Source: Spirochaetales bacterium Spiro_09
GTDB taxonomy: Bacteria > Spirochaetota > Spirochaetia > Treponematales > Treponemataceae
Reading direction: 5' to 3'
NCBI GenBank assembly: GCA_001604385.1
Contig: LVBK01000020.1
Span: forward strand, 62,001-126,000
Length of the DNA: 64,000 nucleotides
Part shown: positions 5,596-57,653 of the stretch, one piece after another
Layout: each line of letters begins with the position of its first letter
Position numbering within the stretch: the stretch's first letter is position 1
Position numbers and translations under genes: made by a program
The notes under the pieces: model-generated
The model's input: the letters and a program-made list of their open reading frames with translations, nothing else
Database searches by the model: none
What the model was told of the DNA's origin: nothing

Positions 5596-6522
5596 CTAGC
5601 CTTCTTCGACGCGGTTGCGGCCCGCTTCCTTTGCCCGGTAGAGAGCCCGGTCAGCGCGCGATACCAGTTCGGCCGCTGTCGCGCAGTCGGGAGGAATGCC
5701 CGCGACGCCGAGGCTGACGGTCACCCGCTCTCCGGCGACCCTGGCGGAATTGTCGGCAACCCGGTCGCAACAGTGCCGGGCCATGAGTATCGCCTTTTCT
5801 GCAGGTGTTTCCGGAAGAATGAAAACCAGTTCCTCTCCGCCGTAGCGGCACAATATGTCGCTTGCCCGGCAGGTGGAGGCGAGCAGCATGGCGACCGCAC
5901 GCAGTACTTCGTCCCCTTTCTGGTGACCCCAGGTGTCGTTGTATTTTTTGAAGTGGTCAATGTCTATCATGATGAGGGCAAGCGGGCGGTCATAGCGGTG
6001 GGCGCGGTCCCATTCCTCGGCGAGGCGCCGGTCAAAGTACCGGCGGTTGTAGACCCCGGTCAGCTGGTCCTTCCAGGCCAATGCGGCGAGTCCTTCCTTT
6101 TTTGTATTGTAAAATTGTTTGAGCTCGAGCAATTTTTCTTCGAGGGGGCTTCCGGCCGCACCAGCGATGAGGGTGGAAATTTTCTGCTCGAAGGCCATGG
6201 TGTCGTCGGCGGAGGGTTCCCCATCCTGAATATCGGTGGCTTCCTTTATGACTATTTTCAGGTTTGCGGAGCCAAGCCTGAACCCTGCCTGTTCTCCCAA
6301 TAGCCGTTTTTCGATTCGCTCGCCGTCAATCCAGGTACCGTTTGTGCTGCCCTGGTCGGTCAGCACAAAACCTTCCGGCGTGCCGCACAGAAGCGCGTGA
6401 ACGCGCGAGACGGTCCGGTCCATGATGCGTATGGCACAGTCGTCACCGCGGCCCAGGAGGTAGGTTTTGGACGGGCTTATTTCCGTTTTCCGGTTCTCGT
6501 GATACAGGTAGTAGAGTTTCAT
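5596..6522 (-). CDS. FHA-domain diguanylate cyclase
   Basis: FHA (LLGRGDDCAIRI...SRVHALL...DQGSTNGTWIDG) plus GGEEL with DxDxFKxxND. Confidence 0.9.
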   Translation of the reverse strand: MKLYYLYHENRKTEISPSKTYLLGRGDDCAIRIMDRTVSRVHALLCGTPEGFVLTDQGSTNGTWIDGERIEKRLLGEQAGFRLGSANLKIVIKEATDIQDGEPSADDTMAFEQKISTLIAGAAGSPLEEKLLELKQFYNTKKEGLAALAWKDQLTGVYNRRYFDRRLAEEWDRAHRYDRPLALIMIDIDHFKKYNDTWGHQKGDEVLRAVAMLLASTCRASDILCRYGGEELVFILPETPAEKAILMARHCCDRVADNSARVAGERVTVSLGVAGIPPDCATAAELVSRADRALYRAKEAGRNRVEEG

Positions 6523-6634
6523 ACATCTTTCATGATACTGCATAGAGCGCGAGCCGGCCATCTTTCTTGCGCGTCTCTCGCGCCGGCAGTCGTCCTCCTG
6601 CCTTTCGCTCTCTGAGTCAATCTGTTCTTCCGTC

Positions 6635-6663
6635 TTGCCTTGACGGGAAGGCTGTGAGATAAT
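6635..6663 (+). promoter_or_regulatory. Sigma70-like promoter of VTC-DUF4956-CotH operon
   Basis: TTGCCT-N17-GATAAT, 9 nt before ATG at 6673, no SD. Confidence 0.45.
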
Positions 6664-6672
6664 CAAATTCTC

Positions 6673-16454: not shown

Positions 16455-17531
16455 TCAGTTTCCTGAAACCTCGTACCGGTTCCTGCCGCCTTTCTTGGCC
16501 CGGTACAGGGCCTCGTCAATGCGGTGATACAGGGATTCAAACTGTTCGGATTCGCGGAATTCGCCCACACCGATACTGATCGTTATCTTGACTCCTTCAA
16601 GATCGGCCCGTTCGACCGCTGCGCGGACTTTTTCCGCTACCCGCGAGGCATTTCGCAAGGAGGTTTGGGGAAGCACAATAAGAAATTCTTCGCCTCCCAT
16701 GCGCGCGATGATGTCTGACTGCCGTATCTGCTCCTGCAGGCACCGGGTGAGCGCCGAGAGCACCCGGTCACCGGTCTGGTGTCCCCGCGTGTCATTGATG
16801 TCCTTGAAGTGGTCAACGTCGATGAGCAAACAGGATATGTCGGTATTATAGCGGTGTTTGGTCTCCAGCATCCGGTTAATGTATTCATGGAGAAAAATAC
16901 GGTTGTAGACTCCCGTTAAATGGTCCCGCAACATCATGTCGCGCATGCGCAGCCGGGCTACCTGATTCTGGGTGCGGCTCCGTTCGGTGTACATGCCCAA
17001 CGCAGCGCTCAAACCGCCCAGAAACGCAATCGAAATAATCAGGCTTTGGTTCGCAGTTTCCTGTAAGAACATGACGTAGACTATGCAAAACAGGGCGGTC
17101 AGATACAGAATAATCAGCGCATACCATCGGTAGGGCGCGCTCAGCATAATGCTGACCCCGATCGTCGCAATATATACCGCGGTCAGATTTTGATAATCGT
17201 GAAAGTCGAGCAGGGTCAGGGAAAGTCCGAGCGTAACCACAAAAAGGCAAAAAAGGAGGGCGGCGGCCGAGACCAGTTTTTTCAGGTGTTTTTTCCGTGC
17301 GAACCAGCTTCCAGCCATAAAAAGAGGCGCGAAAATAAGGGCTGAAAGGTACAGACGTACGTACCGGGCTGTATAGAGCGCACTGGTATTTCTGTCGGGC
17401 AGATACAGTTTTTGCAGCAAAAAAATGCCGCAGCTGGCAAAAAGAATGATCGCGAGGATCATGAAGGTTTTGTAATTATGGTGCAGTCTGAGGTCCGACA
17501 GCTCTTCGCGATAATCATTTTGTGTGCTCAC
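16455..17531 (-). CDS. Membrane diguanylate cyclase (GGDEF)
   Basis: TM segments then DHLTGVYNRIFLHEY...DVDHFKDINDTRGHQTGD...RMGGEEFLIVLP; GTG start overlaps upstream stop (GTGA). Confidence 0.9.
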   Translation of the reverse strand: MSTQNDYREELSDLRLHHNYKTFMILAIILFASCGIFLLQKLYLPDRNTSALYTARYVRLYLSALIFAPLFMAGSWFARKKHLKKLVSAAALLFCLFVVTLGLSLTLLDFHDYQNLTAVYIATIGVSIMLSAPYRWYALIILYLTALFCIVYVMFLQETANQSLIISIAFLGGLSAALGMYTERSRTQNQVARLRMRDMMLRDHLTGVYNRIFLHEYINRMLETKHRYNTDISCLLIDVDHFKDINDTRGHQTGDRVLSALTRCLQEQIRQSDIIARMGGEEFLIVLPQTSLRNASRVAEKVRAAVERADLEGVKITISIGVGEFRESEQFESLYHRIDEALYRAKKGGRNRYEVSGN

Positions 17532-18535
17532 ATACTGGAGTGTAGTGTATTGGCGGACGTTTCGCAAAGCGCTTTCAGGAGGCCCGGCGGATATACGGCA
17601 AGATATATCCGGGACCGGCCCTCATGGGAAGAATAGTATGAAACATGGAGCGTCTTCCGGTGCACTGCCATGCCGGGGTAGCCGCAGTCACCGCCCGAGG
17701 GAAGTTCATGGATAACCGAGAGGGAGTCCCCTTTCATCAGACAAAGGGCAACCAGGGGTTTCCGCTTTTTCCAGATACGGGTCGCCGCAAGGAGCGTGCC
17801 GTCTTCCAGCACGATGAAATTGGGTCCGCCGATGCGTTGTCCGGAGGAAGCCCAGGTCCACCTGGTGTACGGCGGTTCGCTTGTCCCGATTCTGGCTGCG
17901 CCCCGGCCCGCCTCACGACGGACAAGCGCTATGGCGGTTGAACCCCTGAAGCGGATCACCGCTTCGTTGGGCAAACCGGGAACGCGCAATTCGCACAGGT
18001 CATGCCATTCGCGGCCGTCCGCGCTTTTCATCAGGTGAACGGTCCATCTTCTTTTTTCGGGAAGGCGGTAACTGATCCCGTACACTGCCTTTCCGTCCGT
18101 TTCAGGCCGCCACAACCAGTCTCCCTCGCTTCCCGCCTGCCAGCCCTCACTCCATTTCTGTCCGTCCTCCGATTCCCGAAACAGGGTATGGCGGCCAACG
18201 GGCACGCCCTTTACCAGGCGCGTCGCGCCGGTTACCAGAAGAATTTTTTTGGGCGAGAGGACAAGGAATTTCGGGTCGCGCAGATCAACCGACCGTTGCG
18301 AAATCAGGGCAACGCTCGTCCACTGGCGGCCATCCATGGAGCTGATTACCCGTATTTTACCCGGACAGAGGGCATGGGCCTTTGCTTCCCGAAACGTGCA
18401 AAACCACCGGTTTTTGAAGCGTACCAGATCGGTAAAGGCGCAGTGGGGTGCGCCGTCCCAGATCATCTGCAGTGTATAGTTAGCAGCGACGGGACTTTCG
18501 GCGACCATACCGTCAATGCCTGCCATATTCGGCAT
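17528..18535 (-). CDS. BNR/Asp-box sialidase-like beta-propeller protein
   Basis: Repeated Asp-box-like SxDGxxW (SSMDGRQW, SEDGQKW, SADGREW). Confidence 0.6.
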   Translation of the reverse strand: MPNMAGIDGMVAESPVAANYTLQMIWDGAPHCAFTDLVRFKNRWFCTFREAKAHALCPGKIRVISSMDGRQWTSVALISQRSVDLRDPKFLVLSPKKILLVTGATRLVKGVPVGRHTLFRESEDGQKWSEGWQAGSEGDWLWRPETDGKAVYGISYRLPEKRRWTVHLMKSADGREWHDLCELRVPGLPNEAVIRFRGSTAIALVRREAGRGAARIGTSEPPYTRWTWASSGQRIGGPNFIVLEDGTLLAATRIWKKRKPLVALCLMKGDSLSVIHELPSGGDCGYPGMAVHRKTLHVSYYSSHEGRSRIYLAVYPPGLLKALCETSANTLHSSM

Positions 18536-20660
18536 TGTGCCGGCTTCCTTTTTTCAATTGTTTTTCGCGGTACAGATCGGTATCCGCTTCTTCCATCATT
18601 TGTTCCAGACTCATGGTGCAATCGACACCGGAATAAAAATGGCCGATGCTTATAGCCAGCGTCCATTCCCTGCCGAGCTCGCGGTTTTTTTCGTCAAAGG
18701 CCTTGTCTATACGTGCCTTGATTGCCGGATAATTCGGCGGTTCGGCCTTGAGCACGAGGGCAGTGTATTCATCTCCGCCCAGGCGGGCCACGAGGTCAGA
18801 GTCCCGCAAGGTTTTCTTGAGTACCTGTCCGGCAGACAGGATGGCAAGGTCTCCGTCAGCGTGACCCCATTTGTCATTGATTATTTTCAGACCGTCAAGA
18901 TCGGCGTACAGTACATAAAAGGGGGTTTGCTGACGACGCAGATATTTTACCTGCTGTTCCGCCATGGCAAGAAAACCCCGTCGATTATAGAGATGGGTCA
19001 GTTCATCCTCGATGGACATGCGCTCAACCAGTGAAATTGCCTCTTTCAGCTTGTTCTCGGTTCGTTGTCTGATTGTGTTCTCGCTTTTGAGCCGTCTGTT
19101 CAGGCGCTGGATTTTCGCGATTGCCAGAATGTCCTTTGTAATGGCGATGCTGCTGATCCTGATCTGATCAAAGGCAGATACTTCCGGGATGCGCTCGTCG
19201 ATAAGCACGAAGCCATATGAGCGTTCGTCATCCAGTATCATGTTTGCTACAAGGGAGCCGGTGCCGCGGGGCGGAAACCAGGAGCCGCTTCCTGCCCTGT
19301 TGTGCGGATATGCGATATTGAATGAAAAAATGGCAGCAGCTCCGTTGTCTGTTTTGCCAAAGGAGCGGAATCGTAACAGGGCTGCCTTATTCGCACCGCA
19401 TACTTCGGCAATCTCGCTGCAGGTGGCAAGATGCTTTTCAATGCGAAGATCCTGTGCCAGTTCACCGTGAAGCCGTTCGAGCAGTATCCGCAGACTTTGT
19501 GTGTGCAGTATCGTTCTCCAATAGTCTGTATAGGTGCGGTGCCCGTATTCTTCCAGAAGATAGGCATAGAGCTCTACGGGCAGGGCTTCTCCGGTTCGGG
19601 TCAGGGTATGTTCGGATACCATGTGCAAGACCTGTTCAAGCTCGTGGCGCGACTTTTGATCCTTCATTATAGTGGTGACCATGGAAGCCCACCTGCGGAG
19701 CACTTCGGTTTTATCCGTCGTCAACACATCCTTTACCTCGCTGTAGAGCGCTGTAGCACCGTCAATCCGTTCGGGCATCCGCCGGGTAAAATCGACACAG
19801 CCGCAGGAATTGCGGATGCGTATCTGGGGCTGCCAGGGCGGGCTGACGGGGGCTTCATGGCCTTCAACAATGGAGGCAAGGTGTTTTGCGGCATGGTAGC
19901 CCAGGGTGTCAAAGGACTGGCTTGCGGTTGTAAACTGGTGTGAAACCGTGCGCGAAATCTGGTGGTCGTCATAGCCGGTTACCGCGATATCGAAGGGGAC
20001 ACTGATTCCCCGATCCGCGAGGGCATTGTAGACTCCGGCCGCCATCATGTCATTCGAACAGACAATTACCTGCGGGCGAATCTTTCGTTTTTCAATGAAC
20101 GTTACAGCCGCCTCATATCCGGAGGGAGCGTTGAAGTTACCCTCGAATTCCCTGCTCTCGTCCCGTTTGATTCCTGCCTCGTCAAGGGCCGCAAGGTAAA
20201 TTTCCTTGCGAAGCCAGGCTTCCCGGTTGCTCATGGGCCCGGACACGAAGGCAAAGTCGCGATACCCGTGATCATCAAGCAAGTGCTTCATGATAGTTCG
20301 CATGCCGCTGATGTTGTCGAAGGTAAAGGATGGTTCTCCGGCTACCGAGGGCCCTATCGACACAATCGGAAGCGATGATAATCTGTTGATGATCGCCAGT
20401 AATTCTTCATTCTGCCCGTTGTGGGCAAGGGTTGCGGAAACCAGGATAAGCCCGTCAAACTCAGCGGGCGATATCATTTCGAAGAACAGTTTTTTCAAAC
20501 TGTCTTCCGGATTTTTCGGGTTAAGATTTCCGACCCCGAAAAATACCGCTTCCATGCCCTTTTCGTCGAGCAGACGGTTGATGCCTGTTCGCACATCAAG
20601 CAAAAAATTGGAAAAGGCATAATCCATACAAACGGCGAAACGTTTTGGGCTGGCAGACAT
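18513..20660 (-). CDS. LacI/GalR-type periplasmic-binding-fold sensor (no HTH) fused to GGDEF diguanylate cyclase
   Basis: N-terminal LacI effector-domain fold (DHGYRDFAFVSGP, VIVCSNDMMAAGVYNAL, VTGYDD); C-terminal LGGDEY. Confidence 0.85.
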   Translation of the reverse strand: MSASPKRFAVCMDYAFSNFLLDVRTGINRLLDEKGMEAVFFGVGNLNPKNPEDSLKKLFFEMISPAEFDGLILVSATLAHNGQNEELLAIINRLSSLPIVSIGPSVAGEPSFTFDNISGMRTIMKHLLDDHGYRDFAFVSGPMSNREAWLRKEIYLAALDEAGIKRDESREFEGNFNAPSGYEAAVTFIEKRKIRPQVIVCSNDMMAAGVYNALADRGISVPFDIAVTGYDDHQISRTVSHQFTTASQSFDTLGYHAAKHLASIVEGHEAPVSPPWQPQIRIRNSCGCVDFTRRMPERIDGATALYSEVKDVLTTDKTEVLRRWASMVTTIMKDQKSRHELEQVLHMVSEHTLTRTGEALPVELYAYLLEEYGHRTYTDYWRTILHTQSLRILLERLHGELAQDLRIEKHLATCSEIAEVCGANKAALLRFRSFGKTDNGAAAIFSFNIAYPHNRAGSGSWFPPRGTGSLVANMILDDERSYGFVLIDERIPEVSAFDQIRISSIAITKDILAIAKIQRLNRRLKSENTIRQRTENKLKEAISLVERMSIEDELTHLYNRRGFLAMAEQQVKYLRRQQTPFYVLYADLDGLKIINDKWGHADGDLAILSAGQVLKKTLRDSDLVARLGGDEYTALVLKAEPPNYPAIKARIDKAFDEKNRELGREWTLAISIGHFYSGVDCTMSLEQMMEEADTDLYREKQLKKGSRHNAEYGRH

Positions 20661-20797
20661 GAAGCCTCCGATGAATGGTAACTTTACTAATTGGACAAGT
20701 CCGGGCGCTCGTTCCCTTTAACTGTAATAGGTGTATCGGCATTTCACAAGTACAACATGAATATGCCTCCCGGTTCGGGATTACCCGACAGCGCAAT

Positions 20798-20826
20798 TTG
20801 ACAAACGACCGTGGATGAATGATCCT
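20798..20826 (+). promoter_or_regulatory. Sigma70-like promoter, predicted leaderless
   Basis: TTGACA-N17-GATCCT, 6 nt before ATG at 20833; -10 weak. Confidence 0.35.
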
Positions 20827-20832
20827 TGAGTA

Positions 20833-23800
20833 ATGATCGATCTTGCGGGATATCGCGTTACCGAGCTGGTGCATACCGGCTCGGTGTCGACGGTTTACAG
20901 GGGTTTTCGTCTTGATGACGGTAAACCGGTTGTCATAAAAAAGTATGAGGGCGCGGAGGTGGAACGGGAGTATTCCGTCGTTCGCTCGCTCTCCGGCCCC
21001 GGTATTCCGAATCTGGTGTCCTTTGACCGCACCGACAACCGGTCTTTTCTCGTGTACGAGGATACCGGCGGTCTTGCCCTTGATACCGCCCGTTCCGCAG
21101 CGCAATTCGGTCCTGACAATCGTTGTGAAATTTCACTGTCACTTGTTGATATTATATTTTCAATTCATGAACAGGGATATCTGTATACCGCGTTCCATCC
21201 TTCCCGAATCATCTATTGTCCCGATACGGGCGTCATACATCTTGCCGGCCTCGGACACGCCGTATTGGCCGAAAGCATGAAGGTTCCCCTGACGGAACGT
21301 CCTTCCGGGCGTATCGAGTGCATTTCTCCCGAGCAAACAGGCCGGATCCAGAAGATCCCCGATATGCGAAGCGATCTGTATTCGCTGGGCTGTTGCCTTT
21401 ACTGGCTGTGGACCGGACACTATCCGTTTACGGGTGACACGCTCGAGATATTGTACAGTCACATTGCGCGCGTACCGCTTGCCCCCGCACTTGTGGAAGG
21501 AATTCCCGGCGAGCTTTCTGCCATCATCATGAAGCTGCTTTCGAAGCGCAGCGAGGATCGGTATCAGACTGCTGCGGGGTTGCGTTCAGATTTACAGTAT
21601 GCGCTCAGTACCAATCGGGGGGCTGTTTCCCCGGAGGTCTTCGTTGCGGGAGCCCAGGACAAGAATCCGTATTTGCTTCAGTCCTCCCATATATACGGCA
21701 GAAAGGACGAATTCGAGCGAATGACCAGGATCCTGTGCGCAAAGCGCAACACACCGGTGTGCGTACTGGTTTCCGGGGCCTCGGGAATCGGCAAAACAAG
21801 TCTTATCCAGGAGGCCGTTCGCCTCTGTGTGGAAGAGGGTGCGGTGCTGGTTACGGGTACTTTTTCCCTTCTGGAGAGAAATATCCCCTTCAGTATATTG
21901 TCTGCCGTTTTGAGCGACGTATACCGGGCTGTACTGCAAAAAGACGGAGAGAGTGAGCCGTTCAGAACCGAGCTTCTTGCTGCCCTTGATACAAATGCGG
22001 GTATTTTAACGCATCTGGTTCCGGACCTGGTTGCATTACTGGGGGAACACGAAGAGCCGCCCACACTTTTTCCGACTGAGGCATGGAAACGCCTCGTTCG
22101 GGTAGTCGGGGATTTTGTCCGTCTGTGTGCGGATCGCCTGCCGCTGGTAGTGTTTTTTCTGGATGACGTGCAATGGGCCGATATGTCTTCGATGGATTTG
22201 CTTGGTCAGCTGATTTTTTCGAAGGCATCGCCAAATATCCGCTTGATTCTTTCGTACCGTGACTGCGATATTATGTCGGGACACCCTGTCTCTCTTTTTC
22301 TGGAAGATATTCACAAAGGGGGCGGCTTTGGACCGGATATTCAGGAATTTGAAATTGGTCCGCTTCCGGAAACGGACGTGAATCTTCTGGTGGCCGGCAC
22401 TCTGCAGGTATCAAGCGAAATGGCGACAAGTCTTTCCCATTATATTTATACGAAGACCAAGGGTAATCCGTTTTTCAGTTTGCGGCTGTTACAATCCCTG
22501 TCGGAGAGAGGCTTGCTGACAAATGGCGGAAATCCGGGCGACTGGTCCTGGAAAATGGCAGAAATCGAGCGCGCTCCGGTGTCGGACGATGTGGTTGACT
22601 TTCTGGTCGATGAGATGGCTGCCCTGCCTGAGGCTGTTCAGAGTGTATTGAGCAAGGCCGCCTGTATTGGCCAGCGTTTTGACTTTCATGCCCTTTCGCA
22701 CTTTTGCGAACGCAGCGATGGCCTTCCCGGTATTGTCTGGTTGTTGCTCGAGCGGGGGTATATTCTTCCGCTGACTTCCGCATACCGGCGGCTTGATTCG
22801 GCAAAGACTGCCTATGCCGGAAGCGGCGTGGAAATGCTTTTCCGGTTTGCCCATGATCGCATTCATACCGCGGCCTATTCGCTGATGTCATCGCAAACCC
22901 GGGAACAAACGCACCGGCTGATCGGAATGAAGCTGCTTGCTTCCCGCGTTCGGTCAACACCCGGACAGATGCAAATATTCGAGCTGACAAATCAGTTGAA
23001 TCTTGCGGGCCAAACCATCTCGCTTTTTGATGATCGTCTGGAATTGATGCGTCTGAACACCGAGGCGGCCCGAAAAGCCGCTGAAAATACGGCCTATGAT
23101 GTGGCGTTGACCTACGTGGATCGCGCAATATCCCTTTTATCACCACAGGAGTGGGAAGATTATCCGTCGGATCTGTATTGTCTGCGAACCCTTCGTGTTG
23201 AATGTCTTTTTCACCGTCACGGGACGGAAGATGCGCTGAACGAGTGCTCTTTGCTGGTCACTCTGGCCGGCTCAAAGCTTGAGCAGGCTGACGTGTTCGC
23301 CCTTCGGGCAAAGATACTTGACCATGGAGGAGAACGCCGCGAGTTTATCATGGATGAACTGCGGAAAGCCCTTGCGCTCTTCGATGTATCGTTTCCCTAT
23401 GAGCCTGAGCGTCTTTCGGAGCTTGCCGCAGCGTCCCTGGTGCGTATGCGCGATCGTTTTCTGGAAATGGGTGAGTCGGCAACGAATATCATCACCTCCT
23501 TGCCGCTCATGAACAATCCGGAGAATGAGCGGGTCATGCGGCTTTTATATCAGGCCCTTCCGGTCGCTTTCCAGTATAATCAGGATCTCTATCTTTCAAT
23601 ACAGGCCCGGATGTTTTCCATTACCCTTGATTACGGAATCTGCGATGTTTCGTGCAAAAACCTGGTTGAGTGCGGCATGTCGCTGGGCAGTATTTTCGGT
23701 ATGTATCGGGAAGGTCATGCGTGCGGAAAAATCGCCTTCGATCTGATTGATCGCTACCGGTATCGCGAACAGAAGTCCGCCTGCTGTTTTATATTCGCAA

Positions 23801-25998
23801 CCTTCATTTCGCACTGGAGCGCCCCGTTTTCTGAAAGCCTTGAGTATTTTGATTTATCCATAAAGAGCGGACTTGAACTGGGGGACATTCAGCATGCCGC
23901 CTATGCCGCGACGCATCGCTTTAACCGTCTGGTATATACTTCCCTGCCGCTGAGCGAGGCCTCCCGTACACTGGAAGAATTGAAGGTCTTTCTTGAGTCG
24001 GTTCAGGGAAACTTGCTGTTGGTGTATGCCGAATATCTTCGCTATTTTATTGATCGCCTGACCGGCAGGGCGGATATTTCCCGTGAGTCCGATCTGGCCG
24101 CTGTCGCTGCCTCGGACGACAATGTGTTTTATCGCTGCATATTCGGACAGTTGAATGTGTTTTATTCGGTCGTCATGGGAGACCTTGAGGCCGCTGCCCA
24201 GTGGGTCGCGTATACCGAACCATTTTTGAATTCCGGTATCGGTATGTTTCCTCTGGCGGATCATGTGTTGTTCCGCTTGCTGACCGTACTCCGACAGGAG
24301 CGCGCGAAGAAAACAGAGCTTACTGAAGGTGAGCGAAAAATAGTCGAGACCTCGCTGGCTCAACTTGAGCTGTGGGCTGAAAACTCGAGCGAGAATTTTT
24401 ACCCGGTCTATTGGTTTGCGCTCGCGGAATATCGTGCTAGCGAGGGAAGGGCCCCTTCCGAGGTTCTGGAGGCATACCGCAAGGCGCTTGAGGGAATCCG
24501 TCCGGGCAGCTTTGAGTACATTCGGGCGATGGTGCTGGAAGGCGAGGGCTTGTACCGGAGTATGACAGGTGACGTCGCAGGTTTTCACTCATCCATACGA
24601 TCTTCCTGTGCCGCGTTTCGCCTGTGGGGAGCTACCGAGAAGGTGTCCCTCATGGAACGCCAGTATCCTTTCGTGCAGGATCGTCCGCTCATCCGGCTGT
24701 CACAGGGTGAGGTCTCCGAGGGCGGACCGATACTTTTTGAGCGGACCCTTTCCGCGGTACAGGTGCTTGCACGCGACTTGAAGCGGGATTCTGTCATTGC
24801 TGCCGCCTTGCGACTGGTGTGCGAGTTATTGGACATGGACCGGGGTGTTTTTCTTGCACCGATACCGGGCACCGCCCAATTTTCTGCGGTTGCCGGGTGC
24901 GAGCGGAATATGGAAGGATATGTCGTGGTACATGAGGGTGACACGCACGAAAGGTCGCGGATAGCGTGCAATCGTGATGTCGTCCGTCAGGTGCACAATT
25001 CGGGCGACCTCGTGTTGCTTCATTGCGCGTCTGAAGTACGATCCCGTTTTTCCCCGGTGACGGAGGGTCTCCCGGAAGCCTTGGTATGCGCTTCAGTGAA
25101 AAGCCAGAATCTGCAGTTCGGTGTGTTATATCTTGATTCGCTCCGGACCCGTGAGGGTTTTGATTCCGCGCTCAGGGCGTCTCTTGTGTGTATTCTTGAG
25201 CAGCTGGGTGTCTCTCTGGAACACGCGCACCGGTTTGACGATCTTGAGGGAAGACTCTGTTTGCGCAATGAGCAGGTAGCATCACTTCAACGCGAAAACA
25301 GCGAACTGTCGCTGGTTGATCCGATCACCGGATTATACAACCGCAGATACCTTGATGAGGTCGTCAAGGAAACCTGTGAAAAACATATGCAGGCGTATTC
25401 TTCCGTTCAGTGGTCCCGGGAAAAACGGCGGGGTTTTTTGGGCCGCTACGTCACGGGCGTCGTGCTGGTCCGTCTGGACTCCTGGTCGCGGGTTCATGCC
25501 GTGTATGGGCAAACCGCTTCCAGCCAGTTGATGTCCCGGTTCACGGACCAGTTGCGCGCACTCGTCAGAAAAAACGATGTCCTGATCAAATGGGGATCTG
25601 ACGATATTCTCGTATTGCTGACAAACGCGACCCGCCGGTTTATTCCCCGTTTTGTCGACAAAGTCCTGTCTGCCTGCGCCAACGGGGAAGTGGATCTGGG
25701 TGATAACCGGAAGTTCCGTCTTGACTGCAGCGTGGGCTCCTGTTCCTTCCCTTTGTACGCCGGACAATCGGACCGCTTTTCATTGGACTCGGCAATTACC
25801 CTTTGCTGTGTCGTACGCAATTCCATAAGCCGCCGCACCGGAAGCCAGGCCGCCTGCGCTACCGGCAGGCGTTTCCGCGATGACGGTATCTCCCTTGAGA
25901 GCTGGCTTGACCGACTTGAGGCCGACAGCGACTTTGACGACCGGTTTATTACCGTCGATTATCGTGGATCCTCCCGTGCCGTTTCCGGAAATGCCTGA
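20833..25998 (+). CDS. Giant signalling protein: Ser/Thr pseudokinase - AAA/STAND ATPase - helical repeats - GAF-like - degenerate GGDEF
   Basis: Kinase fold with HRD->TAF and DFG->GLG; Walker A SGASGIGKTS, Walker B VVFFLDDVQWAD; C-terminal DPITGLYNRRYL with WGSDDI instead of GGDEF. Confidence 0.88.
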   Translation: MIDLAGYRVTELVHTGSVSTVYRGFRLDDGKPVVIKKYEGAEVEREYSVVRSLSGPGIPNLVSFDRTDNRSFLVYEDTGGLALDTARSAAQFGPDNRCEISLSLVDIIFSIHEQGYLYTAFHPSRIIYCPDTGVIHLAGLGHAVLAESMKVPLTERPSGRIECISPEQTGRIQKIPDMRSDLYSLGCCLYWLWTGHYPFTGDTLEILYSHIARVPLAPALVEGIPGELSAIIMKLLSKRSEDRYQTAAGLRSDLQYALSTNRGAVSPEVFVAGAQDKNPYLLQSSHIYGRKDEFERMTRILCAKRNTPVCVLVSGASGIGKTSLIQEAVRLCVEEGAVLVTGTFSLLERNIPFSILSAVLSDVYRAVLQKDGESEPFRTELLAALDTNAGILTHLVPDLVALLGEHEEPPTLFPTEAWKRLVRVVGDFVRLCADRLPLVVFFLDDVQWADMSSMDLLGQLIFSKASPNIRLILSYRDCDIMSGHPVSLFLEDIHKGGGFGPDIQEFEIGPLPETDVNLLVAGTLQVSSEMATSLSHYIYTKTKGNPFFSLRLLQSLSERGLLTNGGNPGDWSWKMAEIERAPVSDDVVDFLVDEMAALPEAVQSVLSKAACIGQRFDFHALSHFCERSDGLPGIVWLLLERGYILPLTSAYRRLDSAKTAYAGSGVEMLFRFAHDRIHTAAYSLMSSQTREQTHRLIGMKLLASRVRSTPGQMQIFELTNQLNLAGQTISLFDDRLELMRLNTEAARKAAENTAYDVALTYVDRAISLLSPQEWEDYPSDLYCLRTLRVECLFHRHGTEDALNECSLLVTLAGSKLEQADVFALRAKILDHGGERREFIMDELRKALALFDVSFPYEPERLSELAAASLVRMRDRFLEMGESATNIITSLPLMNNPENERVMRLLYQALPVAFQYNQDLYLSIQARMFSITLDYGICDVSCKNLVECGMSLGSIFGMYREGHACGKIAFDLIDRYRYREQKSACCFIFATFISHWSAPFSESLEYFDLSIKSGLELGDIQHAAYAATHRFNRLVYTSLPLSEASRTLEELKVFLESVQGNLLLVYAEYLRYFIDRLTGRADISRESDLAAVAASDDNVFYRCIFGQLNVFYSVVMGDLEAAAQWVAYTEPFLNSGIGMFPLADHVLFRLLTVLRQERAKKTELTEGERKIVETSLAQLELWAENSSENFYPVYWFALAEYRASEGRAPSEVLEAYRKALEGIRPGSFEYIRAMVLEGEGLYRSMTGDVAGFHSSIRSSCAAFRLWGATEKVSLMERQYPFVQDRPLIRLSQGEVSEGGPILFERTLSAVQVLARDLKRDSVIAAALRLVCELLDMDRGVFLAPIPGTAQFSAVAGCERNMEGYVVVHEGDTHERSRIACNRDVVRQVHNSGDLVLLHCASEVRSRFSPVTEGLPEALVCASVKSQNLQFGVLYLDSLRTREGFDSALRASLVCILEQLGVSLEHAHRFDDLEGRLCLRNEQVASLQRENSELSLVDPITGLYNRRYLDEVVKETCEKHMQAYSSVQWSREKRRGFLGRYVTGVVLVRLDSWSRVHAVYGQTASSQLMSRFTDQLRALVRKNDVLIKWGSDDILVLLTNATRRFIPRFVDKVLSACANGEVDLGDNRKFRLDCSVGSCSFPLYAGQSDRFSLDSAITLCCVVRNSISRRTGSQAACATGRRFRDDGISLESWLDRLEADSDFDDRFITVDYRGSSRAVSGNA

Positions 25999-37286: not shown

Positions 37287-38498
37287 ATGCTCTCGTACAT
37301 GAGTAGACATACAGCATACGAGCGTGCGCTCAACAGTATTACCCGTTTTTACCGCGAACTTGACGGTTCCATCCCCGCCTCGGCCCGCGATTTTTTCGTA
37401 GTGGCCACCTCCTCCCTCGCCCAATTCGCCGGAGATGACCTGTGGATGACCGCCGAGCGAATCCGCGAACCGGCTCCCGGTTTCCGGACCGTACAGTCAT
37501 CTTCCCGCATGCTTCCCTTTGACGCAGCCAGTCTCGCCGCCCTTTTTGCGCGCAACCGGTGCATGAGCGCGGACGGCCGGGATGTGCATTCCCCGTCAAA
37601 GGACTTGAAATCCTGGCTCTTTATTCCCGTCTCCACAAAAAAAGAAGCGGTGTTTGCTCTGTTCTTGACGCGTCGAAGCGGGACGTATTCCAAACATGAT
37701 CTGCATAGTGCGGAGCTTCTCTCCCAGTTGTTTTCACAGGCCTTTCGCATGGTAAGGATAACAAATCGCAAGAACCGCAAACTTGCCGAAGAAACGCGTC
37801 ATGCAATGCTGATCGATACGCAGCGCACCTTTGCCCGCCGGGATCCCGATTGGTCATGGTATGCCTGTACACGCGACTATTCGGGCGGGACCGGCAGCGA
37901 TGCCGCCCTCGTGTATCCATTCGGACAGGATAATGCCCTTGTGTGTACCGCCGATGTTACTGCCGATGACGCCGACCGTCAGGCAGGCCTATTGTATCTG
38001 GACACCTGGTTTTCCATCCTGGTACAAACCTCCCTCGATGCCCGAAGCATGATAAGCCGTCTGAATACCGATATGGTTCGCAGAAAGGGTGACTGTTACG
38101 CCTCCGTGTGTCTGGTGCGCTACATTCGATCAGAAAACCGTATCGAGATTGCCGGTTGCGGCAACACTGGCTGCGTTGTTTTTTGCCACGCCAGCATGAG
38201 CGTGCGGGTAATTGAATTCGGAGCGGCCGCAGGTATTGCCTCAGATAGTGCGATTGTTTCCGAAACGGTGGCAGTGCGTCCGGGGGATATTATCTGCGCC
38301 TTCACTGACGGGGTCTCGGGAACTCGCAAACGAAACGGCGATCTGTTCGGGCTTGAAGAAATCGCGCAGATAGTGAAAAAACACTATTTCTTGTCCGCAA
38401 ACGATTTGTCGGCGCGGATCATGACCATACTCACTGAAAAGGAAGTCTCCGGCGTGCATAGCGATGACCGGACGGTACAGATAATCAAGGTCGACTAG
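37287..38498 (+). CDS. SpoIIE/PP2C-type phosphatase with N-terminal GAF-like region
   Basis: PP2C features VCTADVTADDADRQAG..., IICAFTDGVSGTRKRNGDLFG, SDDRTVQIIKV. Confidence 0.8.
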   Translation: MLSYMSRHTAYERALNSITRFYRELDGSIPASARDFFVVATSSLAQFAGDDLWMTAERIREPAPGFRTVQSSSRMLPFDAASLAALFARNRCMSADGRDVHSPSKDLKSWLFIPVSTKKEAVFALFLTRRSGTYSKHDLHSAELLSQLFSQAFRMVRITNRKNRKLAEETRHAMLIDTQRTFARRDPDWSWYACTRDYSGGTGSDAALVYPFGQDNALVCTADVTADDADRQAGLLYLDTWFSILVQTSLDARSMISRLNTDMVRRKGDCYASVCLVRYIRSENRIEIAGCGNTGCVVFCHASMSVRVIEFGAAAGIASDSAIVSETVAVRPGDIICAFTDGVSGTRKRNGDLFGLEEIAQIVKKHYFLSANDLSARIMTILTEKEVSGVHSDDRTVQIIKVD

Positions 38499-38523
38499 GA
38501 TGTCGACAGGAGGGCAACGCATT

Positions 38524-38871
38524 ATGGAAGTAAAAACACGATTGGTGGACAATATCATTGTGTATACGGTAAAGGGGGAGATAGATATGTACGAGGCTTC
38601 CTCGTTACATGAAACCTATCTGAAAGAAACGGCAAAACATCGGAATGCCTCTGTGGTCATCGACATGGAACAGGCCTCCTACATCGATTCGAGCGGCATT
38701 GGCGTGTTGTTCCAGATGTATTCAGACTCCAAAACGCGCAAGACCCTGTTTTGCCTGTGCAATGTGGGAGGCATGATCGAAAAGCTCTTCAAATTGAGCC
38801 GGATGATCTCGGTGTTTCCCATTGAACCTGATATGGCGTCCGCGCTTCGCCGGGCAGGGGGTACCCTGTGA
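38524..38871 (+). CDS. STAS-domain anti-sigma-factor antagonist
   Basis: VKGEIDMYEASSL, VVIDMEQASYIDSSGIGVLFQ. Confidence 0.93.
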   Translation: MEVKTRLVDNIIVYTVKGEIDMYEASSLHETYLKETAKHRNASVVIDMEQASYIDSSGIGVLFQMYSDSKTRKTLFCLCNVGGMIEKLFKLSRMISVFPIEPDMASALRRAGGTL

Positions 38872-39410
38872 TTGCAGAAATTCTTGTCAGTGACGACCAT
38901 GCGCTTTTATCCCGGAAAGATATGCAGTACTCCGTGTTTGCGAGCGACTTCAGGCAAATCCGGTATTATACGCTTCTTTTGGTACAGCGTTCGCGGCCGA
39001 GAAGCGATGAGCGGCTATTGCTCGAGCAACAGGTCAGCGAGGTGCTCAAGAATGCCATAAAACACGGGAACAAAAGCGACCCCTCAAAAATGATCAAGGT
39101 CTGGTACCGGTTTACCGCGACCGAAGCGCGCCTCATTGTCGAGGATGAAGGTCCGGGTTTTGCAGACATTGAAAAATGGAATATTTTCAACAGAAAACGC
39201 CAGGAATATATAGAGAAGGAAGACTTTATCGGCTTGATGAATTATGTGTCATGGCGGACAAGCAAGAGCGACCCGTATGATGGCGGCAATGCTCTTTTTG
39301 CGGCGGTCGAATACTGGAATGAGGGTGTCGTCTATACTGGAGCACGGAATACGGTTGCCGTCGGAAAACGGTTTGAATCCGATTTTCTTGACATGGAGGG
39401 CGATGAATGA
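38868..39410 (+). CDS. HATPase (RsbW-like) with atypical C-terminal part
   Basis: EVLKNAIKHGNK N-box, IVEDEGPGF G1-box; GTG start overlaps STAS stop. Confidence 0.8.
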   Translation: MIAEILVSDDHALLSRKDMQYSVFASDFRQIRYYTLLLVQRSRPRSDERLLLEQQVSEVLKNAIKHGNKSDPSKMIKVWYRFTATEARLIVEDEGPGFADIEKWNIFNRKRQEYIEKEDFIGLMNYVSWRTSKSDPYDGGNALFAAVEYWNEGVVYTGARNTVAVGKRFESDFLDMEGDE

Positions 39411-40564
39411 TTCTTTCCGAGGTCGCTCGGTCGGTTCTTCCCGACGAACGGATCATCAAGATTGCGAGTTCCTTTTCGTTCGTTTCCGCAGGGACCACCG
39501 TCCATGAACTGCTGGCCGAAATGAAAGACTCTTCCCGTCATGCGGTCGCCGTCATCGACAAGGGTCGGCTTGCCGGTATTATAGTTGCCGAAGATCTTAT
39601 GGAAATTCTTGGCAAACCCTTTGGTCGCGATCTATTGCGCAGGCAGCGCGTCGAGGACGTCATGCGGAGCGCGGTTACCTTTCGGTATGACGAGTACATC
39701 CAGTCGATTATGGAGCGAGTGCAGGGCGATCTGGAAGCTGAACGGGACGCGCACTATGTGCTGGTCGATGAATCCCTGTCCTTCAGGGGACATGTGTCCG
39801 CCCGGGACATTATTTCCTACGCGCTGGAGGATAAACGCCGTGAGGTCGAGCTTGCCGCCCGTATCCAGAGCCGTCTGGTTCCTCCGTTTCTGGAACGGGG
39901 AGGCCAACCGGTATCGTTTGTCTGTTCATCGGTCATGGCCCAGGGGGTCGGCGGTGACTATTACACGGTCATTGAATATGAACCGGGACGGTGGTTTTTT
40001 TGCCTGTGCGACATTTCGGGGAAGGGCGTGTCAGCTGCAATAATCACGGCTATGTTGGGCTGTTTTATGCAAACTGCCAATTTGTCGGGCCCTCTCGAGG
40101 CTGTGCTACAAAATCTGAACCGGATCATTCACGATACCTTTCATCTGGAAAAATACCTGACCGGGCTGTTCGCGCGCTTTTGTCCGGCCACGGGAGAACT
40201 CGAGTACTGCGACATGGGCCATTCCCTTTTTTTTGTCGTCACATCATCGGGCTGCGAGCAGCTGCATGAAAATGCCGACAATATGCCGCTTGGTCTGGAA
40301 CCGGTTCTTGACCCTGTCGTCAGGACTCTCAGGCTTGCCGGTGACACGACGCTTCTGTTGCTGAGCGACGGCGTTATCGAACAGAAAAACCGTTCGGGGG
40401 AACAGTGGCCGCTGTCGGCAATAGGTACGGCAATCGAGGAAAGCCTCCGTGTCTCAGGCGATCCGGTGCGTGCGAAAATCCGTATCCTCGAGTCTTTTTT
40501 CTCGTTCAAGGAGGATGTTCCCCAGCACGATGATATCAGCATGCTGATTTTTCACTACCGGTAA
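39407..40564 (+). CDS. CBS-domain SpoIIE/PP2C phosphatase
   Basis: N-terminal CBS pair; VGGDYYTVIE...CDISGKGVSAAIITAM; TLLLLSDGVIEQ; ATGA overlap. Confidence 0.9.
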   Translation: MILSEVARSVLPDERIIKIASSFSFVSAGTTVHELLAEMKDSSRHAVAVIDKGRLAGIIVAEDLMEILGKPFGRDLLRRQRVEDVMRSAVTFRYDEYIQSIMERVQGDLEAERDAHYVLVDESLSFRGHVSARDIISYALEDKRREVELAARIQSRLVPPFLERGGQPVSFVCSSVMAQGVGGDYYTVIEYEPGRWFFCLCDISGKGVSAAIITAMLGCFMQTANLSGPLEAVLQNLNRIIHDTFHLEKYLTGLFARFCPATGELEYCDMGHSLFFVVTSSGCEQLHENADNMPLGLEPVLDPVVRTLRLAGDTTLLLLSDGVIEQKNRSGEQWPLSAIGTAIEESLRVSGDPVRAKIRILESFFSFKEDVPQHDDISMLIFHYR

Positions 40565-57080: not shown

Positions 57081-57653
57081 ATGAAATACGGCATACTCTT
57101 CCTTTTCATTCTGGTTGTTGTGCTGTGCGTCCTGTACCTGCGTGAGCGGAAACGGGTTCGTCTTCTGTCTTCAACCGATTCGCTGACCGCGCTGGCAAAC
57201 CGCACGGCATTTCTGGGCTTTCTTTCACGGGAGCTTGCCCGGACGGACCGGCACGGGAATCCCCTGTCTGTCCTGATGATCGATATTGACGATTTCAAGT
57301 GCATCAATGATACCTGGGGCCATGGCGAGGGCGATCGGGTATTGCGTAAGCTTGCCGATGAGCTTAAAGCAAATTTGCGCTCGATTGATTGCATTGGCAG
57401 ATGGGGCGCAGACGAGTTTGCCGTGGTTGTCAGCGAAACAGGGTATGATGCTGCCCTGGTTGTCGGAGATAAATTATGCAGGGTGACAGCAGCCTCCGAT
57501 GTATGCAGGTTCAAGCAGGTGACCGTCAGTATAGGGGTTTGTGCCTGTCAGGTGCATGATTCTGTCGATGCGGTGCTTGCCCGCGCCGAAAACGCCTTGT
57601 CTCGCGCTAAAGCGGAAGGGAAAAACCGTTCCTGTGGATCGCCGGTGGCATAA
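57081..57653 (+). CDS. Membrane-anchored GGDEF-domain protein (GADEF variant)
   Basis: N-terminal TM; DSLTALANR, DIDDFKCINDTWGHGEGD, RWGADEF. Confidence 0.88.
   Translation: MKYGILFLFILVVVLCVLYLRERKRVRLLSSTDSLTALANRTAFLGFLSRELARTDRHGNPLSVLMIDIDDFKCINDTWGHGEGDRVLRKLADELKANLRSIDCIGRWGADEFAVVVSETGYDAALVVGDKLCRVTAASDVCRFKQVTVSIGVCACQVHDSVDAVLARAENALSRAKAEGKNRSCGSPVA

Follow-up and report, generated by a model that had tools for sequence, protein, structure and literature searches.

The window analysed here, a stretch of 64,000 nucleotides (positions 62001-126000 of contig C9) from a genome of 2.7 Mb (88% complete), carries an open reading frame of 1,721 amino acids that starts with ATG and contains no internal stop. 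Domains were assigned using Pfam, and matches over the curated cut-offs were obtained for Pkinase (E 8e-14), AAA_16 (E 9e-26) and GGDEF (E 2e-13); a GAF match was under its cut-off (20.4 vs 22.4 bits, E 8e-4). No Pfam TPR match was found in the helical region, where only a weak SPO22 match (0.09) was returned and where conservation with a congeneric relative, L011, reaches 35%. No obvious hydrophobic stretch was noticed on reading the protein sequence by eye. A frameshifted or chimeric reading frame was ruled out by the collinear full-length similarity to L011 and the lack of stop codons, and all motifs quoted in a first-pass annotation of this DNA, DPITGLYNRRYL among them, were found in the translation. 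Coordinates of the features are given in Table 1.

Table 1. Features of the locus (positions in the window; aa, residues of the encoded protein; DGC, diguanylate cyclase).
Feature	Positions	Strand	Basis
Second DGC, canonical motifs, GGEEF	16455..17567	-	Pfam, alignment
Divergent neighbour: LacI-type ligand-binding domain + GGDEF	18513..20660	-	Pfam, alignment
Intergenic gap, 172 bp, shared with the divergent DGC gene	20661..20832		ORF positions
Whole gene: kinase fold / STAND ATPase / helical region / GAF / GGDEF fold	20833..25998	+	ORF, Pfam
Pseudokinase domain, aa 8-248	20854..21576	+	PF00069, PknB and family alignments
YTAFHPSR for HRDxxPxN, catalytic loop, aa 118-125	21184..21207	+	Family alignment
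GLG for DFG, aa 139-141	21247..21255	+	Family alignment; G139 at the DFG Asp position
ISPEQTGR, activation-segment end, aa 164-171	21322..21345	+	Retained by almost every dead relative
AAA_16/STAND-type ATPase core, aa 287-469	21691..22239	+	PF13191
Walker A SGASGIGKTS, aa 314-323	21772..21801	+	Sequence
Walker B VVFFLDDVQWAD, aa 439-450	22147..22182	+	Sequence
Helical-repeat region, aa about 700-1290	22930..24702	+	TPR-like by family resemblance
GAF-like domain, aa 1319-1462	24787..25218	+	PF01590, sub-cut-off
Putative linker helix between GAF and GGDEF fold, aa 1463-1493	25219..25311	+	Sequence, start of AF2 model
Degenerate GGDEF domain, aa 1494-1640	25312..25752	+	PF00990, AF2 model
VRLDSWSRVHAVYG: PleD D327->R1547, K332->S1552, N335->H1555, aa 1546-1559	25468..25509	+	Alignment
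Intact I-site RxxD, R1579-K-N-D1582 (RKND)	25567..25578	+	Conserved in L011 and L012
WGSDDI for (W)GG(D/E)EF, aa 1587-1592	25591..25608	+	Alignment
Glycosyltransferase + SpoIIE/STAS/anti-sigma-like/CBS-SpoIIE cluster	36065..40564		Gene-order comparison

Neighbourhood and genome context

The divergent neighbour carries the canonical substrate residues (DLDGLKIIND, LGGDEY, RxxD) and, judging by these motifs, is probably an active DGC; no sigma-70 match was found in the gap between the two genes. The second canonical DGC sits two genes beyond it. The glycosyltransferase-SpoIIE cluster is found 10 kb downstream and has the gene order and orientation of its counterpart in the congeneric genome G011, where it directly adjoins the gene for L011. 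Within this cluster, positions 37287-40564 (+) encode a partner-switching set, composed of a SpoIIE phosphatase, a STAS protein, a SpoIIAB-like kinase and a CBS-SpoIIE phosphatase. In G011, a hemerythrin-domain DGC is found in divergent orientation two genes upstream of the L011 gene. The gene directly upstream, on the same strand (L117, 11278-12258, minus strand), resembles a class III nucleotide cyclase by eye; it contains the motifs DIRNFSSF and GDGAIVIW and has no Pfam match. Comparison of synteny with a further congeneric genome (G004) revealed no common neighbours.

The host is a spirochaete, as judged by its three copies of the flagellar outer-layer protein FlaA, which is absent from 14 control genomes. 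In its genome, 28 GGDEF domains score above the curated cut-off, about 25 with a high score, which indicates that c-di-GMP signalling is abundant; a single further strong match to a Ser/Thr kinase was found. Two additional GGDEF proteins were observed in the window. A small protein with a hydrophobic N-terminus (57081-57653, +) has WGADEF for GGDEF with the other catalytic residues present, and by analogy with other one-letter variants is possibly active. The other (5596-6666, -) is a fusion of FHA with a canonical GGDEF domain, possibly a phospho-threonine-controlled cyclase, in a host that has few Ser/Thr kinases.

Catalytic residues of the kinase, ATPase and GGDEF folds

The alignment of the kinase fold comprised 96 relatives and PknB. 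The beta3 Lys is retained (K36 in VVIK), as is the activation-segment end, and E46 is aligned with the alpha-C Glu, a position that is 95% Glu in Asp-bearing relatives (this assignment being our own). The catalytic loop and DFG are lost, in agreement with the first-pass annotation: the HRD Asp, present in 74 of 97 aligned members, is replaced by Ala120, and the catalytic Asn by Arg125. The residues of an active Ser/Thr kinase (HRD Asp, catalytic Asn, DFG Asp) are thus all missing, and the C-lobe is retained. Degraded HRD and DFG motifs with a kept VAIK correspond to the description of the pseudokinases of the CP1 group, and by the usual sequence criteria the fold is a pseudokinase.

Concealment of the catalytic residues by misalignment was ruled out, since family and PDB alignments agree; at both termini, no catalytic Asp or Asn was found elsewhere when the domains were aligned with the 96 relatives and with PDB kinases and GGDEF domains. 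With three sequences as input, AF2 gave a poor model of the kinase (pLDDT 58), too weak for side-chain placement; used as a Foldseek query, it ranked PknB first (E about 6e-12, TM about 0.45). An anti-phage role was considered and rejected, the PADLOC matches (PD-T4-6, mad6) being essentially to a generic kinase domain.

The ATPase core, previously claimed to be intact, does possess both the Walker A and Walker B motifs that characterize STAND/AAA_16 proteins. Residues G315, G318, G320 and K321 of the former, and D444, D445, Q447, W448 and D450 of the latter, are invariant in alignment A1, and a working ATP/ADP switch is predicted from these motifs.

For the GGDEF domain, the alignment comprised ten relatives that end in GGDEF and four GGDEF domains encoded elsewhere in the window, canonical or nearly so, residues being designated by PleD numbering as in PMC12943098 and PMC3509222. 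In addition to the changes listed in Table 1, D344 is replaced by S1564 and E370 by D1590, so that the metal ligand (D327) and the guanine-binding residues (N335, D344) are all substituted, and AKxxGRN, the segment bearing K442/R446, is missing. None of the features of an active DGC (GG(D/E)EF, D327, N335, D344, K442/R446) is therefore present, and because metal, base-recognition and phosphate residues are lost together, cyclase activity is very unlikely. The fold is retained, together with its N-terminal helix and the DPxTGLYNRR segment; the AF2 model (pLDDT 71) matches PDB GGDEF domains, with a TM by target length of 0.81-0.85 against a Thermotoga GGDEF domain. The earlier description of a kept cyclase fold, with WGSDDI for GGDEF and without the FKxxND substrate residues, was hence borne out by the alignments with relatives and PDB domains.

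What had been missed in that description is the intact RxxD, which at the level of sequence gives the main positive hint of a function. A degenerate A-site combined with an intact RxxD is the pattern of I-site receptors of the SgmT/PopA type. The secondary I-site Arg (PleD R390) is roughly aligned with a Lys in the window protein. Ordinary DGCs commonly have RxxD as well, and its presence here could be a matter of inheritance only.

Relatives in the genus and in the phylum

The protein was found in 3 of 12 genomes of the genus, and the two congeneric relatives (L011 in G011, L012 in G004) share 30-33% identity with it along the full length; no close orthologue was found, the best identity being 33%. 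Full-length architecture is alike in the three proteins, and L011 also shares the downstream gene order described above. Both active sites are intact in L012 (HRDICPSN and DFG; FKTVND and GGEEF), only that of the GGDEF domain is intact in L011 (FKRVN, GGEEF; the kinase is dead, with HNAVSPSA and DFS), and neither is intact in the window protein. A tree built from the ATPase region by a quick method groups the window protein with L011 as its sister (SH-aLRT 99); as both are kinase-dead, the dead kinase is probably older than their split. The simplest reading of these sequences would be a loss of the kinase before this split and of the cyclase after it. Identity between the window protein and L011 was calculated per domain (kinase 31%, ATPase 33%, helical region 35%, GAF 23%, GGDEF 37%); the two ends are no less similar to relatives than the core, and this speaks against simple decay.

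Full-length relatives turned up in 6 of 394 genomes of the order, where they are rare, and in 80 of 393 genomes of the phylum, where they are frequent. The set of kinase-bearing members comprises 97 proteins, 95 from the phylum search and the relatives, and 2 (L007, L008) from a MAG labelled Proteobacteria. The catalytic Asp is absent in 23 of them, which corresponds to about 14 changes by parsimony, at least 6 of which are forced by well-supported branches. In these 23 dead kinases the catalytic Asn is kept in 35%, the DFG-Gly in 30%, the activation-segment G-T in 30% and 9%, and the beta3 Lys in 65%, whereas P166, E167, G170, D181, G186, R243, Y244 and D253 are found at 96-100% (P166 and E167 100%, G170 96%). 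Since the C-lobe is kept while the active site vanishes, the kinase fold seems to be retained for a non-catalytic role.

Among 94 members with a classifiable C-terminus, the effector is a SpoIIE-type phosphatase in 45, a histidine kinase (HK) in 23, a GGDEF domain in 11 and another type in 15, with class III cyclase-, AraC- and LytTR-like ends recognised by eye in this last category. Judging by these sequences, effectors are freely swapped within the family, and the statement that such proteins usually end in an HK does not hold in this phylum. A survey for the same losses gave a divided result: loss of the kinase is recurrent, but a degenerate GGDEF domain occurs only in the window protein (n = 11), the other ten GGDEF-ending members having GG(D/E)EF. 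An association of kinase death with the type of effector, visible in the raw counts (dead in 5 of 45 SpoIIE-ending members vs 12 of 34 with an HK or GGDEF end, Fisher p 0.013), was rejected, as it disappeared on independent tree pairs (median p 1).

Some other relatives were also observed. A distant one (L026, 544-3867), from a genome of the same order (G111), has HLAIAPPN and, like the window protein, GLG for DFG; its locus has runs of N and the C-terminus is unreadable. Plasmids, too, carry relatives of the chassis (221 records, most of them from Rhizobium and Pantoea). A relative on a Legionella lytica plasmid, annotated as an EAL-domain protein, aligns with residues 4-1640, and a GGDEF-EAL ending on the same chassis therefore probably exists.

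Precedents, interpretation and alternatives

CP1 proteins are described as a cytosolic kinase fold fused to a COG3899 predicted ATPase, often with GAF/PAS domains; about 40% are pseudokinases, two of them in the spirochaete Leptospira interrogans (PMC12599244). The window protein resembles them in its fusion of kinase fold and ATPase and in its pseudokinase state. It differs in having a GGDEF output and a second dead terminal enzyme, neither of which came up in the section of that review on CP1 or in a scan of its text for GGDEF. Its succession of Pkinase and AAA_16 and its full-length homology to other kinase-ATPase-GAF proteins make it probable that the kinase half belongs to CP1, as judged by the description of the group. 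The HstK/cbSTKIII dual kinases of cyanobacteria likewise have an N-terminal kinase and a middle GAF, but they end in an HK and possess the catalytic Asp, family III being 'KD' kinases (PMC2176072). Leptolyngbya proteins annotated with kinase and two-component sensor domains align with residues 1-1492 at 27% identity. A Clostridium thermocellum kinase-TPR-GGDEF protein of 1,826 aa, reported in 2005 as combining a kinase with GGDEF (PMC1262709), has by its description a large N-terminal kinase, helical repeats and a C-terminal GGDEF in common with the window protein.

For the tail, the closest tested precedent is SgmT of Myxococcus xanthus, in which a C-terminal GGDEF domain, preceded by a GAF, has a degenerate A-site, lacks K442/R446 and keeps an intact RxxD, binds c-di-GMP via its I-site and is sequestered by it (PMC3509222). 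The losses and the retained motif are alike in the two proteins, but SgmT keeps a working histidine kinase and has neither a Ser/Thr kinase fold nor a STAND ATPase. PopA of Caulobacter is cited in the same article as another protein with a degenerate A-site and intact RxxD. The first-pass proposal of a c-di-nucleotide or GTP receptor is thus strengthened as regards c-di-nucleotides, because RxxD is intact and SgmT offers a precedent, and is unsupported as regards GTP, because the substrate-site residues are gone.

The preferred reading, to which a probability of about 0.4 was assigned, is that of a STAND hub switched by ATP, whose tail is a non-enzymatic receptor of c-di-GMP and whose neighbour is a divergent, probably active DGC. 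A cytosolic chassis of the CP1/HstK type with a GGDEF output would have given up both enzymes. The STAND ATPase, whose motifs are present, would work as an ATP/ADP switch; the pseudokinase may have been retained as a protein-interaction or regulatory lobe, as selective conservation of the C-lobe suggests; and the GGDEF fold would bind c-di-GMP via its I-site RxxD and no longer make it. Binding would then set hub assembly, location or partner choice, and the DGC with the LacI-type sensor is a plausible source of the messenger. The fuller form of this reading, a c-di-GMP-gated STAND switch in which both terminal enzymes are now binding modules, a former maker of the messenger reads it, and living intermediates persist in the genus, is doubtful as a whole.

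It is also conceivable, if rather unlikely, that the degenerate GGDEF domain binds no c-di-GMP itself and is a protein partner, forming a dimer with an active DGC (the product of the divergent gene, for instance) and regulating it. Preservation of the fold with its N-terminal helix and DPxTGLYNRR, and the occurrence of DGC genes nearby in two genomes, would be expected on such an account, which nevertheless leaves the retained RxxD unexplained. Retention of ligand-site residues (K36, E46, RxxD) speaks against a pure scaffold in which both terminal folds are interaction surfaces and signalling passes through the ATPase and GAF only; this remains unlikely, despite the selective retention of the C-lobe by dead kinases and the swapping of effectors on a constant chassis.

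Decay of the gene, by which a once-active GGDEF protein would be disappearing with its terminal domains under relaxed constraint, agrees with the stepwise losses across the genus (two intact sites in G004, a dead kinase in G011, two dead sites in the window) and with presence in a quarter of the congeners; it is judged improbable, given that all 1,721 codons are open, that the terminal domains match relatives as well as the core does, and that the dead kinase probably predates the split from L011. Residual or alternative chemistry, either transfer of a non-phosphate group by the kinase fold or some cyclase activity of the GSDDI site, could be argued from the kept K36 and E46 and from the activity of VCA0965 with AGDEF, cited as an indication that degenerate DGC sites can work (PMC3974145). 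It is highly improbable, as HRD Asp and DFG Asp are both gone and as the metal-, guanine- and phosphate-binding residues are lost jointly, unlike a change of one letter in the motif.

The proposal that both ends have turned into binding or scaffold modules consequently stands as far as predicted catalytic death is concerned, in view of the residue losses, and the surprise attached to the pseudokinase does not: the dead-kinase half is already described for CP1, is recurrent in the family and is not new. Loss of the cyclase with the signal-binding motif kept is unusual, and suggests a protein that may listen to c-di-GMP instead of making it; no description of a double terminal loss with a retained I-site was found in the literature searched. 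Dead kinase-ATPase fusions are known and almost unstudied, and a single genus displays here three stages of enzyme loss on one chassis. Repeated kinase death with the C-lobe kept points to a non-catalytic job of the kinase fold that can be mapped. No direct coupling of a second messenger to a STAND ATPase switch was found in the literature searched, and such a coupling is what this protein would represent if its tail binds c-di-GMP.
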